From Microvirga pudoricolor (lineage in GTDB: Bacteria; Pseudomonadota; Alphaproteobacteria; Rhizobiales; Beijerinckiaceae): DNA of 64,000 bases. The stretch covers positions 558,001 through 622,000 of the forward strand of contig NZ_JAFEMB010000001.1 of assembly GCF_016892705.1 (NCBI RefSeq), read 5' to 3'. Positions 43,431-51,168 of this stretch are shown in pieces (the stretch's first letter is position 1; each line of letters starts with the position of its first letter). Below the pieces are notes generated by a model. That model saw only the letters and a program-made list of their open reading frames with translations, had not been told where the DNA came from and did no database searches. A program made the translations under genes and the position numbers.

Positions 43431-46078
43431 GCCAGAGCCTCGTCGAGAAGCGTCGCTTCCGCCTCGGCCAGAATCTCGTCCGCATCGTCGCTGTAGACGC
43501 GCTCGCGGCCGATCTCCAGCATCACGGAGACACTTAAGGGAGATACCCGGTCGAGCGCCTTGTGGATGATTCGCCCCCGGATGCGCGAGAGCATCATGCC
43601 GAGGCGCTTCACGTCGAGGAGTCCAGATGCCGCATCCGCCCGCGCGGCTCTCAGCAGAACGTGGTCCGGCTCGTGCTTGCGCAGCACGTCGTAGACGAGG
43701 TCCGTCGAAACCGTGACCTGGCGGCCGGTCTTCTCCTGGCCCGGAAAGCGCCGCTCGATCAGCCCCGCGATCACGGCGCAATGCCGGAAAGTGCGCTTCA
43801 TGAGGGCGGATTCGGCGAGCCAATCCTCCAGGTCGTCGCCCAACATGTCCTCGGAGAACAGCTCCTCCATGAAGCCGGGCTCCCGCCCGGCCCGCGCCGA
43901 GATGTCGCCGTTGGCATAGACGGCGAGGCCGTAATCGTTCGCCACGAAGCCCAGAGGCTTGAGCCCCGCCCGCTCCAGACGCCGGGTGAGCAGCATGCCC
44001 AGCGTCTGGTGCGCGAGCCGGCCCTCGAAGGGAAAGCACGTCATGTAGGAGCGCCCTCCGCGCGGGAAGGTCTCGACCAGGAGGTCGCGCGGTCCGGGGA
44101 TCACGGAGCGGCGGCGCTGCTGGAGCAGCCATTCGTTGAGCTCGCGCGGCAGCCGGTCCCATTCGAACGGATCGGCCAGGATCGCCCGCACCCGGGCGGC
44201 CAGGAAGGTCGAGAGCGGGAACTTGCCGCCGTCATAGGCCGGGATCTTTGGGTCCGTGCCCGACGCCGCCTTGGTGACCAGGGCCTCGTCCTCGCTCATG
44301 CCCTCGAAGCGCAGAACCTGTCCGGCGAACAGGAACGTGTCGCCCGGCGTCAGGGTCTCGGCGAAGTACTCCTCGATCTCGCCCAGCACCGGACCGCGCG
44401 GCAGGATCGTGCCGGGCCGCGCGCGGCGGGAGCGGCCGAGCCGCACTTTGACCGTCGTGGAATCCATGATGGTGCCCACGTTGAGCCGGTACTGCTGGGC
44501 GATGCGCGCATCCCTGACCCGCCAGAGGCCGTCGGGCCCCTTCACGATCTTGGCGAAGCGCTCATAGGCCCGCAGCGCGTAGCCCCCGGTCGCCACGAAG
44601 GCCACGCAGGCCTCGTACTCCTCCCAGGTCAGGTTGGCGTAAGGCGCCGCCGAGACGATCTCGTCATAGAGGTCCTCCAGCCGGAAAGCATCCGCGCAGG
44701 CCATGCCGAGGATGTGCTGGCACAACACGTCGAGCGCGCCGACGCGGGCATCGGGCGTATCCTGGGCGGCTTCATGGACGGCATCGAGGGCCGCCCGGCA
44801 TTCCAGGATCTCGAAGCTGTTGGCGGGAACCAGATAGGCCTTCGAGGGCTCGTCCATGCGGTGGTTGGAGCGCCCGATGCGCTGCATGATGCGCGACGCC
44901 CCCTTGGGCGCCCCCACATTCACCACGAGGTCGACGTCGCCCCAATCGATGCCGAGGTCGAGGGTGGCGGTGCACACCACCCCGCGCAGCTTGCCCGCAG
45001 CCATCGCCTCCTCGACCCGGCGGCGCTGCGACACGTCCAGCGACCCGTGATGGAGGGCAATGGGAAGCCCGTCGTCGTTGAGGTCCCACAGCTCCTTGAA
45101 GGTGTACTCGGCCTGAAGGCGGGTGTTGACGAAGACCAGCGTGGTCTTGTGCTCCCGAATGAGGTCGTAGATCGCCGGCATGGACCGATAGGCCGTATGG
45201 CCGGCGAGCGGCAGGCGCTGGCGGATATCGAGCATCTCGATGTCGGGCTGCGCCCCGCCCTTCACGACGACGAGATCGGCGAGAGGGTGGGTGCCTACCA
45301 CCTCCCCCTTGAGGGGGGAGGTCGCGCCGGAGGCGCGGGAGGGGGTGGGAAGCGCGACCTCACCAGGCTCAGCGGTTCCACCCCACCCCGGATCGCTGAT
45401 GCGATCCGACCCTCCCCCTCCAGGGGAGGGTAGACGCTGCGGCACCAGGTACCGCCTGAGATCGTCCGGCTCGCGCACGGTGGCGGACAGCCCCACCGTC
45501 GTCATGTTCGGCGCGAGTTTATGGAGCCGTGCGAGGTCGAGGGACAGGAGGTCTCCCCGCTTGGACGTCACCAGGGAGTGCAGTTCGTCCAGCACCACCC
45601 GCCGGAGATCCTTGAAGAACTCCCCGGCCTCCCGGTGCGCGACCAGGAGGGCCAGTTGCTCCGGGGTGGTGAGCAGGATATCGGGCGGACGCTCGATCTG
45701 GCGGGCGCGCTTGTGGGAGGGCGTGTCGCCCGTGCGGGTCTCGACCCGGAGCGGAAGGTTCATTTCCTGAACGGGCGTCTCCAGGTTCCGGGCGATGTCG
45801 GTCGCGAGCGCCTTCAGGGGCGAGATGTACAGGGTATGGAGAGAACCGCCCTTCAGCCTCGCCTTGGGAGCTTTCGCGTTCCGCTCGGCCAGCTCTACCA
45901 GGCTGGGCAGGAACCCCGCCAGCGTCTTACCGGCGCCGGTGGGCGCCACCAGCAGCACGGATCGCCCGGCCTGCGCCTTGGCCAGAAGCTGGAGCTGATG
46001 CTCGCGGGGCTTCCAGCCTCGGCTCTTGAACCAGTCTCGGAAGGGTTTAGGCAGGAGGGACGCGGACGCTTTCGGCAT
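43427..46078 (-). CDS. Ligase-associated DEXH-box (Lhr-Core type) DNA helicase with an in-frame repeat insert
   Basis: 883 residues. APTGAGKTLAGFLPSL (motif I, about residues 44-59), DELHSLVTSKRGD (motif II region, about residues 167-179), RIGRSNHRMDEPSKAYLVPA (motif VI region). The remaining C-terminal half is the Lhr-Core winged-helix and beta-barrel part. Between residues 215 and 260 an insert (LPSPGGGGSDRISDP ... SRASGATSPLKGEV) encoded by the palindromic element at 45300-45432 interrupts the helicase core without breaking the frame. Works with PdeM, exonuclease and ligase. Confidence 0.93.
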   Translation of the reverse strand: MPKASASLLPKPFRDWFKSRGWKPREHQLQLLAKAQAGRSVLLVAPTGAGKTLAGFLPSLVELAERNAKAPKARLKGGSLHTLYISPLKALATDIARNLETPVQEMNLPLRVETRTGDTPSHKRARQIERPPDILLTTPEQLALLVAHREAGEFFKDLRRVVLDELHSLVTSKRGDLLSLDLARLHKLAPNMTTVGLSATVREPDDLRRYLVPQRLPSPGGGGSDRISDPGWGGTAEPGEVALPTPSRASGATSPLKGEVVGTHPLADLVVVKGGAQPDIEMLDIRQRLPLAGHTAYRSMPAIYDLIREHKTTLVFVNTRLQAEYTFKELWDLNDDGLPIALHHGSLDVSQRRRVEEAMAAGKLRGVVCTATLDLGIDWGDVDLVVNVGAPKGASRIMQRIGRSNHRMDEPSKAYLVPANSFEILECRAALDAVHEAAQDTPDARVGALDVLCQHILGMACADAFRLEDLYDEIVSAAPYANLTWEEYEACVAFVATGGYALRAYERFAKIVKGPDGLWRVRDARIAQQYRLNVGTIMDSTTVKVRLGRSRRARPGTILPRGPVLGEIEEYFAETLTPGDTFLFAGQVLRFEGMSEDEALVTKAASGTDPKIPAYDGGKFPLSTFLAARVRAILADPFEWDRLPRELNEWLLQQRRRSVIPGPRDLLVETFPRGGRSYMTCFPFEGRLAHQTLGMLLTRRLERAGLKPLGFVANDYGLAVYANGDISARAGREPGFMEELFSEDMLGDDLEDWLAESALMKRTFRHCAVIAGLIERRFPGQEKTGRQVTVSTDLVYDVLRKHEPDHVLLRAARADAASGLLDVKRLGMMLSRIRGRIIHKALDRVSPLSVSVMLEIGRERVYSDDADEILAEAEATLLDEALA
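45300..45432 (-). repeat. Palindromic repeat element inserted in frame in the helicase gene (copy 1)
   Basis: About 132 bases (44 codons) flanked by two perfect 23-base hairpins: ACCTCCCCC-5-GGGGGAGGT at 45300-45322 and ACCCTCCCC-5-GGGGAGGGT at 45409-45431. Inside lie CGCGCC-3-GGCGCG (45323-45337) and GGATCGC-4-GCGATCC (45390-45407). Read in the gene's sense it shares GCGATCCGGGGTGGGGTGG and neighbouring bases with copy 2 at 49125-49255. Confidence 0.92.
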
Positions 46079-48070: not shown

Positions 48071-49267
48071 ATGGCCCTGCGTTCGACCGACATCCTGACC
48101 CAGACCCCGCAAGGGCTCTATTGCCCCCTCGGCGACTTCCACATCGATCCGATCCGCCCCGTGAAGCGGGCGCTCATCACCCACGGCCACTCGGACCATG
48201 CCCGGGCCGGCCACCGGGCCGTGATGGCGACCCGGGAAACCTTGCGGATCATGGGCGTGCGCTACGGCGAGGATTTCGCGGCCACGACGCAGGAGGCGGC
48301 GCTCGGCGAAAGCGCAAAGCTCGGCGACGTGACCGTGCGCTTCACGCCTGCGGGTCACGTGCTCGGCTCGGCTCAGATCTCCATCGAGGCGGGCGGCACC
48401 CGCGTCGTGGTCTCGGGCGACTACAAGCGCGCCGAGGACCCGACCTGCCTGCCCTACGAGGTAGTCCCCTGCGACGTGTTCATCACGGAGGCGACCTTCG
48501 GCCTGCCGGTGTTCCGCCACCCCGACACCCGCGACGAGGTGCGCAAGCTCCTCGATTCCGTGGCTCTGTTTCCCGAACGCGCCCATATCGTCGGGGCCTA
48601 TGCGTTGGGCAAGGCCCAGAGGGTCATGGCCCTGCTGCGGGAGGAGGGCTACGACAAGCCGATCCATCTCCATGGCGCCATGGAACGGCTGACCGAACTC
48701 TACAAGAGCGAAGGCGTGCCCTTGGGCGAGACGCCCAAGGTCGTGGCGGCGGAGCGCTCCAAGCTTGCGGGCGCCATCGTGCTCTGCCCGCCCTCCTCGA
48801 TCCAGGACCTGTGGTCGCGCCGGTTCCCCGACCCCGTCACTTGTTTCGCGTCCGGCTGGATGCAGGTGCGCGCCCGCGCCCGCCAGAAGGGCGTGGAGCT
48901 GCCTCTCGTGATCTCCGACCATTCCGACTGGGACGACCTGTGCCGCACCATCGTGGAAACCGGAGCGGGCGAGGTCTGGGTGACCCACGGCCAGGAGGAC
49001 GCCCTCGTCCATTGGTGCACGACCCAGGGCATCCAGGCGCGGCCCCTGCACATGCTGGGCTACGGCGACGAGGGCGAGGCGGAGCCGGATGAGACGGCGC
49101 ACCCTCCCGTGGAGCCGCCAGCCCACCCTCCCCTCGAGGGGGAGGGTCGGAGCGCGTCAGCGATCCGGGGTGGGGTGGGAAGCGCCAGCGCTGATGAGGT
49201 CGCGGTTCCCACCCCACCTCGGCCTTTGGCCGATCCTCCCCCTCAAGGGGAGGATAGCTCCCCATGA
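48071..49267 (+). CDS. Ligase-associated DNA exonuclease (metallo-beta-lactamase/beta-CASP type) with repeat-derived tail
   Basis: 398 residues from ATG 48071. THGHSDHARAGH (about residues 36-47) is the HxHxDH metal site; AGHVLGSAQ, VVSGDYKRAED and VISDHSDWDDL (motif region near residue 282) follow. Family members normally end shortly after GIQARPLHMLGYGDEGEA. Here about 55 extra residues (Pro/Gly/Glu-rich) are encoded by the palindromic element at 49125-49255. ATGA overlap with the ligase gene. Confidence 0.93.
   Translation: MALRSTDILTQTPQGLYCPLGDFHIDPIRPVKRALITHGHSDHARAGHRAVMATRETLRIMGVRYGEDFAATTQEAALGESAKLGDVTVRFTPAGHVLGSAQISIEAGGTRVVVSGDYKRAEDPTCLPYEVVPCDVFITEATFGLPVFRHPDTRDEVRKLLDSVALFPERAHIVGAYALGKAQRVMALLREEGYDKPIHLHGAMERLTELYKSEGVPLGETPKVVAAERSKLAGAIVLCPPSSIQDLWSRRFPDPVTCFASGWMQVRARARQKGVELPLVISDHSDWDDLCRTIVETGAGEVWVTHGQEDALVHWCTTQGIQARPLHMLGYGDEGEAEPDETAHPPVEPPAHPPLEGEGRSASAIRGGVGSASADEVAVPTPPRPLADPPPQGEDSSP
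49125..49255 (+). repeat. Palindromic repeat element forming the exonuclease tail and ligase ribosome-binding site (copy 2)
   Basis: 131 bases bounded by perfect 23-base hairpins ACCCTCCCC-5-GGGGAGGGT type at 49125-49147 and ATCCTCCCC-5-GGGGAGGAT at 49233-49255. Inside, GGTGGGGTGGGAA (49169-49181) faces its exact complement at 49206-49218. It shares the core with copy 1 in the same sense orientation but is read in a different frame. Its last arm contains GGGGAGGA 9-10 bases before the ligase ATG. Confidence 0.93.
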
Positions 49268-51168
49268 ACCGCTTCGCCGCCCTCCTCGACCGGGTCATGT
49301 ACGAGCCGCGCCGGAACGCGAAGCTACGGCTGCTCGTCGACTACTTCCGGCATACCCCCGACCCCGACCGGGGCTACGCGCTGGCGGCCATGACCGGCGC
49401 GCTCATGTTCAAGGAGGCCAAGGCCGGGCTGATCCGGGGCCTCGTGGAGGAGCGGGTCGACCCGGTGCTGTTCCGGATGTCGTATCACTACGTGGGCGAC
49501 CTGGCCGAGACGGTGGCGCTGATCTGGCCTGCGCCGCATTCCCAAGTCAACGAAGCTAGGCCAAACCAGCACGACAGGCCCTCTCCACCCTTGTGGGGGA
49601 GAGATGGAGAGGGGGGTGCCCACGGGTCGACCGGGTTGGACGATCTGACCGTTGGCGCCATACCCCCCTCCCGGCCACTATCGCGGCCCCCCCTCCCCCA
49701 CAAGGAGGGAGGGGATTTCGGTGCGCCCGCCATGGGCCACAACAACCCGCCGCCCCACGTGCCCAGCATCTCCGAGGTGGTCGAGACCCTCGCGACGACG
49801 AGCAAGAGCGATCTCCCGGCCAAGCTGACGGCTTGGCTCGACGCTCTCGACGAGGAGGGCCGCTGGGCGCTGCTGAAGCTCATCACGCGGGAATTGCGCG
49901 TGGGCGTCTCGGCCCGGCTCGCCAAGACCGCCGTGGCGCAGCTCGGCGGGATGGAGGCCGACGAGGTGGAGCTGATTTGGCACGGGCTGGAGGCTCCTTA
50001 CGAGAACCTGTTCGCCTGGGTCGAAGGCCGGGGCGAGAAGCCGGAATCGGGCAATCCGGCTCCGTTTCGCCCACCCATGCTGTCTCATCCTCTCGAGGAC
50101 GAAGATTTCCCCAAGCTCGATGCGCGGGACTTCCTCGGCGAGTGGAAATGGGACGGCATCCGGCTCCAGGCCGTCTCGGGCCATGCCTCGGACGGGCGAC
50201 CGGTGCGGCGCATCTATTCCCGCACCGGCGAGGATGTGAGCCGCGCTTTCCCCGACCTCGTGGAGGCGCTCGCCTTCGACGGCGCCATCGACGGGGAACT
50301 GCTCATCGTCCGCGAAGGCCGGGTCCAGACCTTCAACGTGCTCCAGCAACGCCTGAACCGAAAGGCCGTGACGCCCAAGCTCATCGACGAATTCCCGGCG
50401 CACCTGCGGGTCTACGACATCCTGGCCGAGGGCGAGGAAGACCTGCGCGCCCTGCCCTTCGCGGAACGCCGCAAGCGTCTCGAAGCCTTCGTCGCCCGCC
50501 TGAACGATCCCCGCATCGACCTCTCCCCCATGGTGGCGTTCACCTCCTGGGACGAGTTGGAGGCGGCCCGGGCCGATCCGGCCTCGGTAGGCGCCGGCCC
50601 CGATGCGGACGCCATCGAGGGCTGCATGATCAAGCGGGCCGACAGCCCCTACCTGCCGGGGCGGCCCAAGGGGTACTGGTACAAGTGGAAGCGAGACCCC
50701 TACATCGTGGACGCCGTGATGATGTACGGCCAGCGCGGCCACGGGAAGCGCTCGTCCTTCTATTCGGATTATACGTTCGGGGTCTGGCGTGATGGCCCCA
50801 ACGGCGAGGAGCTGGTGCCGGTGGGCAAGGCCTATCACGGGTTCACGGACGAGGAGCTGGTCAAGCTCGACCGCTATGTCCGCAACCATACGGTCAACCG
50901 TTTCGGGCCGGTGCGGGAGGTGGAATACGGGCGGGACCGGGGCCTCGTGCTGGAGGTGGCCTTCGAAGGGCTGCAGCGCTCGACCCGGCACAAATCGGGC
51001 GTCGCCATGCGATTTCCCCGCATCAGCCGCATCCGCTGGGACAAGCCCTCGGCCGAGGCCGACCGGATCGAGACCCTGGAGAAGATCCTCGAACGGGGCG
51101 AGAAGGAGGTCCACCCCTTGGAGGGCACGCCTGTCGAGGGGACCGCACAGCCAAAGGATGCCCCATGA
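49264..51168 (+). CDS. Ligase-associated ATP-dependent DNA ligase (LigB/bacterial type) with a repeat insert
   Basis: 634 residues. The N-terminal DNA-binding domain begins MNRFAALLDRVMYEPRRNAK. Motif I with the adenylated Lys is EWKWDGIRLQ (about residues 293-302). RTGEDVSRAFPD (III region), IDGELLI, EGCMIKRADSPYLPGRPKGY (IV), and KWKRDPYIVDAV (V) follow. Between about residues 98 and 158 an insert (QVNEARPNQHDRP ... PLPHKEGGDFGAP) comes from repeats at 49576-49715; it lies in the linker before SEVVETLATT. Seals nicks after processing by helicase, exonuclease and PdeM. ATGA overlaps on both sides. Confidence 0.94.
   Translation: MNRFAALLDRVMYEPRRNAKLRLLVDYFRHTPDPDRGYALAAMTGALMFKEAKAGLIRGLVEERVDPVLFRMSYHYVGDLAETVALIWPAPHSQVNEARPNQHDRPSPPLWGRDGEGGAHGSTGLDDLTVGAIPPSRPLSRPPLPHKEGGDFGAPAMGHNNPPPHVPSISEVVETLATTSKSDLPAKLTAWLDALDEEGRWALLKLITRELRVGVSARLAKTAVAQLGGMEADEVELIWHGLEAPYENLFAWVEGRGEKPESGNPAPFRPPMLSHPLEDEDFPKLDARDFLGEWKWDGIRLQAVSGHASDGRPVRRIYSRTGEDVSRAFPDLVEALAFDGAIDGELLIVREGRVQTFNVLQQRLNRKAVTPKLIDEFPAHLRVYDILAEGEEDLRALPFAERRKRLEAFVARLNDPRIDLSPMVAFTSWDELEAARADPASVGAGPDADAIEGCMIKRADSPYLPGRPKGYWYKWKRDPYIVDAVMMYGQRGHGKRSSFYSDYTFGVWRDGPNGEELVPVGKAYHGFTDEELVKLDRYVRNHTVNRFGPVREVEYGRDRGLVLEVAFEGLQRSTRHKSGVAMRFPRISRIRWDKPSAEADRIETLEKILERGEKEVHPLEGTPVEGTAQPKDAP
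49576..49715. repeat. Second type of palindromic repeat inserted in frame in the ligase gene
   Basis: Hairpin CTCTCC-A-CCC-TTGT-GGG-GGAGAG at 49581-49603 and a second at about 49687-49714 (CCCCCTCCCCCACAAGG and GGAGGGGA arm). The two arms repeat the words CCCTTGTGGGGG and CCCCCACAAGG in inverted order. The sequence differs from the element in the helicase and exonuclease genes, so it is a separate family. Confidence 0.85.

Follow-up and report, generated by a model that had tools for sequence, protein, structure and literature searches.

In the translation-coupling cassettes of synthetic biology, a hairpin masks the Shine-Dalgarno (SD) sequence and is opened by the upstream ribosome. The hairpin discussed here, just before a DNA ligase gene of Microvirga pudoricolor, differs from these constructs in being natural and derived from a repeat. 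Among natural gene pairs, 13 of 14 overlapping pairs tested in other organisms were strictly coupled (Huber et al. 2019, PMC6728339); in the available text of that study, removal of the SD substantially lowered reinitiation in four of five E. coli pairs, its contribution ranging from essential to none. The ATGA-overlap reinitiation pairs described there (PMC6728339) resemble the ligase junction in their 4-nt overlap and in an SD lying within the upstream gene near the start, whereas the ligase SD is part of a repeat and sealed in a predicted hairpin. Genes VII and IX of phage f1 (PMC12548453) likewise have a -4 spacing and a long hairpin that ends just upstream of the downstream gene, although these are phage genes with no repeat insertion, and their coupling was tested by experiment while ours is predicted. 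The PvuII C/R genes (PMC2997769) also overlap and carry predicted hairpins over the downstream ribosome-binding site (RBS), but they were shown to be translationally independent and apparently involve no repeat element.

Two families of repeats offer a further comparison. Intragenic REPs (PMC3733652) are palindromic repeats in DNA-repair genes, some of them at the 3' end of the coding sequence, where their termini provide stop codons; the Microvirga repeat, unlike these, lacks the GTAG tag, and the main text of that paper does not discuss donation of an SD by REPs under the Shine-Dalgarno name. The Rickettsia palindromic elements (PMC10969869), likened to our repeat by description and not by sequence, are palindromes of about 150 bp fused in frame to genes, and the available part of the review makes no mention of RBS donation. 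In the portion of the open-licence literature covered by our search, we found no repeat that donates a hairpin-masked SD at a gene overlap.

The exonuclease-ligase junction of M. pudoricolor

The window (the whole stretch of 64,000 nucleotides analysed, from a genome of 4.77 Mb) contains, on the forward strand, the coding sequence of a ligase-associated DNA damage response exonuclease (48071-49267; TIGR04122, 489.5 bits, residues 9-334), followed by that of a cisplatin damage response ATP-dependent DNA ligase (49264-51168; TIGR04120, 825.2 bits). The two overlap by 4 nt in the sequence ATGA (49264-49267), which holds the ligase start and the exonuclease TGA stop (49265-49267). The TIGR04122 match stops at residue 334 of the 398-residue exonuclease, and much of the remaining C-terminal tail is encoded by a palindromic repeat of about 136 nt (49122-49257, no strand assigned), located by an inverted-repeat search and by its other copies in the genome. 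The repeat has outer inverted arms of 24 nt (49127-49150 and 49230-49253; 92% complementary), inner inverted arms (49165-49185 and 49202-49222) and, from a hairpin scan, a left terminal hairpin of 9 bp with a 5-nt loop (49125-49147), these features being likewise unstranded. It lies in frame at the 3' end of the exonuclease gene, whose reading frame runs through it entirely without a stop codon. A different, second palindromic insert lies in frame within the ligase gene (49580-49714), and, where the NNPP motif could be located (43 genus genomes), the ligase stretch from residue 88 to this motif is longer in M. pudoricolor and eight others.

The right terminal hairpin of the repeat (49233-49255, forward strand) consists of the 5' arm ATCCTCCCC (49233-49241), the loop CTCAA (49242-49246) and the 3' arm GGGGAGGAT (49247-49255), with 9 bp and a predicted energy of -16.0 kcal/mol. 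Its 3' arm carries the candidate SD GGGGAGGA (49247-49254), whose core GGAGG (49249-49253) is separated from the ligase ATG at 49264 by the 10-nt spacer ATAGCTCCCC; the canonical 16S 3' end TGGATCACCTCCTTT occurs once in the M. pudoricolor genome. As the initial annotation had proposed, the last hairpin of the element thus supplies a ligase SD about 10 bases before the ATG, inside the overlapping exonuclease frame, and reading of the sequence between hairpin and ATG revealed no second one. Its further statement, that the SD is fully paired in folded mRNA, is borne out in the predicted fold: the 141-nt context folds with exactly the hairpin 49233-49255 (MFE -60.3, z -2.71; 3 of 200 shuffles fold equally well), and opening the SD is predicted to cost 15.2 kcal/mol. 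The bases that follow can indeed pair with GGGGAG (49247-49252) as well, since CTCCCC at 49258-49263 forms 6 bp with it, worth -10.9 kcal/mol by itself in folding. The pattern CCTCCCC-N5-GGGGAGG has 40 sites in the genome against none for a reversed-pattern control, from which we conclude that the hairpin is not a chance structure.

At least 41 strand-wise matches to the whole repeat were found in the genome (40 of the 46 first-look candidates were scored), many places being counted on both strands as the element is palindromic. In the window the scan detected two pairs of such terminal hairpins, one at 45300-45431 and the other at the ligase junction. The repeat is MITE-like in that it has terminal inverted repeats and no gene of its own, the frame passing through it being that of the exonuclease, and in that a gene-bearing relative with like ends exists (L015, 1501-2008, with a DUF559 open reading frame); it is probably mobile. 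The GTAG/CGTC tag of REPs was sought in 49118-49262: GTAG is absent from both strands, and the sole CGTC, at 49155 on the forward strand, does not adjoin the base of a terminal hairpin. A search of Rfam with an E-value threshold gave only matches below the gathering score, nearly all of microRNA type, which we take to be palindrome artefacts. No promoter- or terminator-like sites were found at 48900-49450, the repeat included.

The junction in related genomes

The N-terminus of the ligase was found in each of the 48 Microvirga genomes examined; in a sample of 298 genomes of the family it was found in 213, of which 24 belong to the genus. Our comparison of the junction covers 65 loci, 48 from the genus and 17 from the family. 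The 4-nt overlap (ATGA or GTGA) is found at all 48 genus loci and at 61 of the 65 overall, the exceptions being L086, L089, L093 and L095. As it is also present in the 37 genus genomes that have no repeat at this place, the repeat arrived at a junction that already had the coupling geometry and at most tightens a pre-existing coupling. The initial annotation's view that the hairpin makes the ligase coupled therefore needs qualification: an SD-masking hairpin does lie in the exonuclease frame, but the overlap predates it in a genus where 37 of 48 members do without.

The repeat occupies the junction in 11 of the 48 genus genomes. In seven of these the hairpin arm is the SD (L031, which is M. 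pudoricolor, L041, L042, L043, L044, L047 and L076), with a spacer of 7 nt in six and of 10 nt in M. pudoricolor, the only one of the seven with CTCCCC in its spacer. The other four carriers (L045, L046, L054 and L066) have extra sequence with an SD-like motif downstream of the hairpin, the best such motifs being AAGGAGG in L045 and L046, AAAGG in L054 and AAGGAG in L066. At the repeat-free junctions a GGAG-containing motif stands 3-8 nt before the start in 30 of 37; the remaining seven have none, showing that an SD is not indispensable. Alignment of L054 with L041 leaves a 9-nt gap after the hairpin, which makes a stepwise loss of the native SD stretch plausible from the sequences. The right hairpin is identical in all seven genomes that rely on it, while its 3' arm is changed in two of the four other carriers, too few for significance; no signal of selection on the right hairpin was detected, the stems of the left hairpin being equally well kept.

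Folding was compared in a context of 80 nt upstream and 45 nt downstream, with the SD taken as the longest anti-SD match, trivial picks (AAA in L036, GGA in L051) being retained. To open the SD is predicted to cost 13.8-15.2 kcal/mol (median 14.3) in the seven genomes with the hairpin arm as SD, 0.0-9.7 (median 5.0) in the 37 repeat-free genomes and 5.5-13.3 (median 6.9) in the four carriers with a downstream motif; rank tests on these costs are nominal, as related genomes are not independent and the p-values overstate the case. The median probability that the SD is unpaired is 0.00, 0.37 and 0.35 in the same three groups. Opening of the whole start region (-20 to +6) has medians of 20.4 for the seven, 23.7 for the four and 14.5 for the 37. 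With L046 at 13.3 and these whole-region medians, the four other carriers are not plainly more open, and any contrast in strictness between the two classes of carriers is uncertain in these models. In the comparison with relatives lacking the element, proposed at the outset as a check on the hairpin's role, the overlap is kept in 37 of 37, and the SD is predicted to open at a median of 5.0 against 14.3 kcal/mol.

On a two-gene tree the distribution of carriers needs at least five changes, four of them forced by well supported branches, which excludes a single gain inherited without loss. The carriers group together on the tree more closely than under label shuffling (0 of 500 shuffles as low). 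M. pudoricolor stands outside the main carrier group, and the middle of its repeat is unlike that of the other carriers. A lone gain followed by several losses, repeated gains, and transfer between strains would each be a possible history.

Routes to ligase translation

In the seven genomes the SD lies in the repeat, the overlap is conserved and there is no other SD. The reading that we favour (probability roughly 0.55) is termination-reinitiation: the ribosome that completes the exonuclease would start again on the ligase, and the hairpin would keep independent starts at the ligase down. In the presumed order of events, the repeat would have landed in frame in the last exonuclease codons, upstream of an older overlap that normally has its own SD; in M. 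pudoricolor and six relatives this native SD would have been lost, and GGGGAGGA on the repeat's 3' arm would have taken its place and be the SD in use. In free mRNA, occlusion of the SD by the 9-bp hairpin is predicted from folding, and a fresh 30S would rarely start the ligase alone. A ribosome finishing the exonuclease would unwind the hairpin, stop at the TGA (49265-49267) while spanning both SD and ATG, and then begin translating the ligase. The ligase would then depend on translation of the exonuclease, more strictly so through the hairpin, and would probably be made mainly by ribosomes that have just completed the exonuclease. On its upstream side the ribosome's footprint reaches roughly 15 nt beyond the P site, and a ribosome terminating at 49265-49267 would cover 49247 onward. 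Since SD and start codon should both be covered, reinitiation appears at least as likely as fresh entry of a 30S, and the terminating ribosome is our preferred candidate for the restart, the folding being compatible with both routes. The junction has the SD before the downstream start that is common, though not universal, in termination-reinitiation pairs (GGAGG, 10-nt spacer) and, in the predicted fold, the RBS sequestered within the upstream reading frame that marks structure-gated coupling. The 10-nt spacer, longer in M. pudoricolor than in the other six genomes, counts against this reading.

In a rival reading, exonuclease translation does no more than open the hairpin, which the initial annotation supposed it would have to melt, and new 30S subunits then enter at the exposed SD. 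The masking of the SD within the exonuclease frame on which this rests holds in the predicted fold, but reinitiation by the same ribosome is at least as likely a route, and we regard mere opening as a serious, though less likely, alternative. When the 5' arm is blocked in the seven genomes, the opening cost falls from 13.8-15.2 to 4.2-10.3 kcal/mol, near the 0.0-9.7 of repeat-free genomes, and phage f1 VII/IX, with its -4 spacing and upstream hairpin, is cited for this route in the available text of PMC12548453. The same models leave the SD with a probability of being unpaired of only 0.01-0.37 after blocking of the 5' arm and, with all upstream sequence blocked, of 0.01-0.20 in six genomes and 0.64 in one; in M. 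pudoricolor, CUCCCC (49258-49263) replaces the blocked arm as partner of the SD. Melting of the hairpin is thus predicted to remove much of the opening penalty while local pairing stays. Moreover, at such a spacing no downstream start occurs until the terminating ribosome is gone, according to the part of PMC12548453 available. It is conceivable, if somewhat unlikely, that plain termination-reinitiation operates as in the relatives and that repeat, hairpin and donated SD are neutral baggage of little effect: the overlap is there in 48 of 48 genomes whether or not the repeat is present, seven of the 37 repeat-free junctions manage without a good SD, and the span from essential to none in the SD dependence of reinitiation (PMC6728339) leaves room for it. 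Yet a GGAG-type SD is kept at 30 of the 37 repeat-free junctions, the seven genomes without a native SD have the repeat's arm at 7-10 nt, and a livH-like locus (below) has the same pattern.

We consider it improbable that ligase translation is both independent and efficient, with a hairpin too transient in vivo to mask the SD. The PvuII C/R pair, as described in the accessible part of PMC2997769, is a precedent for such independence; against it stand the predicted opening cost of 15.2 kcal/mol in M. pudoricolor and the expectation that so local a hairpin, closed by a loop of 5 nt, should form rapidly. We attach a similarly low likelihood to an action of the repeat on DNA or RNA stability (intrastrand triplex, 3'-end protection, attenuation) instead of on translation. 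Its polypurine-polypyrimidine hairpins and G-rich mirror tract do resemble G/C-rich triplex motifs, but about 20 nt separate the left stem from the third tract GGGGTGGGGTGG, where the motifs in the available description have loops of 1-6 nt (PMC4666352), and the stretch 48900-49450 offered no terminator- or promoter-like site. Such roles are in any case compatible with a translational one.

A DUF559-bearing relative and an apparent second capture

In M. pudoricolor the DUF559 open reading frame at L015 (G000:C13, 1501-2008) is flanked by the same kind of ends as the 136-nt repeat. Judging by eye from translations, this DUF559-bearing element (near 1490-2030) sits at an apparent glyQ-glyS junction (glycyl-tRNA synthetase). 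PF04480 (DUF559) was detected in 43 of the 48 genus genomes; among the matches listed, 68 have an E-value of 1e-23 or better and the rest are weaker. In a survey of 30 DUF559 loci (L221-L250, one per genome, hairpins within 260 nt), a polypyrimidine-stem hairpin flanks DUF559 on at least one side in 29 and on both sides in 18, and in 18 of the 30 the two flanks share an inverted repeat with an E-value below 1e-3. Such a hairpin stood beside 45 of 2000 random intervals of the 64-kb window, in no case on both sides. This suggests that DUF559 and its flanking hairpins form a mobile element, and the flank hairpins, together with the ends at L015, make the 136-nt repeat look, by its sequence, like a short derivative of it. 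A DUF559 protein of Caulobacter is described, in the available text, as Vsr-like and a predicted mismatch-repair endonuclease (PMC12907096); no report that ties DUF559 to palindromic ends was found in the portion of the open-licence literature searched.

Further matches to the hairpin-ATG arrangement pointed to a gene for a branched-chain amino acid permease (livH-like; PF02653 for L214). From 47 genomes with a match, 31 were compared, namely 30 loci and M. pudoricolor's own (L251-L281). In 12 of the 31 loci the livH-like start is immediately preceded by the hairpin CCCTCCCC-CTCAA-GGGGAGG, with its arm as SD; in L270 the loop is CTCTA. The spacer is 7 nt in nine loci, 9 in L264 and 6 in L265, and the opening cost is predicted at 12.8-17.3 kcal/mol (11 loci); L274 was scored on GGTGA by the SD picker although GGAGG is present. 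No in-frame start lies between the start codon and the upstream in-frame stop in 11 of the 12, and in the twelfth, L252, an ATG is found one codon ahead. The start codon is ATG in seven of the hairpin loci and GTG in five. Among the 19 loci without the hairpin, the aligned codon is CTG in eight, all with a TTG three codons upstream, where the gene seems to start in these eight; one of the 19, L268, carries GGAGG at 7 nt in a hairpin of another kind. A PF04480 match precedes the livH-like gene in 11 of the 12 hairpin loci, its end lying about 90 bases away by coordinates; in the twelfth, L252, the contig runs out. The DUF559 frame of L214 crosses the hairpin and terminates immediately ahead of the new start. 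The hairpin arm thus seems to have been captured as SD at two genes at least.

Capture does not appear to be the rule. Around 1444 hairpin sites in the 48 genomes, ATG occurs 153 times at 4-11 nt and 322 times at 16-23 nt, whereas GTA and GAT occur 74 and 75 times, respectively, at 4-11 nt, a rough comparison as the near flank is partly element sequence. The excess of ATG over GTA and GAT is not specific to SD spacing, and a general RBS function of the repeats was accordingly rejected; since ATG is not enriched at that spacing, the pattern looks like occasional co-option. Of 33 hairpin-ATG sites in 30 loci (one per genome), six were judged convincing gene starts from length and codon-position GC. 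As a separate observation, a gene for a TPM-domain protein (PF04536 for L218, the others alike by eye) has a sister-family hairpin with a GCAAG or GCAGA loop before its ATG, at spacers of 5 (L193), 11 (L195) and 5 nt (L218).

More tentatively, and with doubt, we propose that the palindromic ends of the DUF559 element family in Microvirga may be portable translational-coupling modules: they would bring a strong SD on the outer arm of a terminal hairpin, the upstream frame (host gene or DUF559 open reading frame) would run through it, and insertion at gene junctions would yield structure-gated reinitiation. The corresponding pattern is seen at the ligase in seven of 48 genomes and at the livH-like gene in 12 of 31 loci.

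At the ligase junction, Microvirga presents a natural series of alleles at a conserved DNA-repair pair: no repeat; repeat with a retained downstream SD; and repeat arm as sole SD. With these real alleles, what the overlap, the SD and the hairpin that masks it each add to coupling could be tested separately. It also suggests a route by which a repeat may become part of a needed signal: after loss of the host's SD, removal of the repeat would carry a cost.
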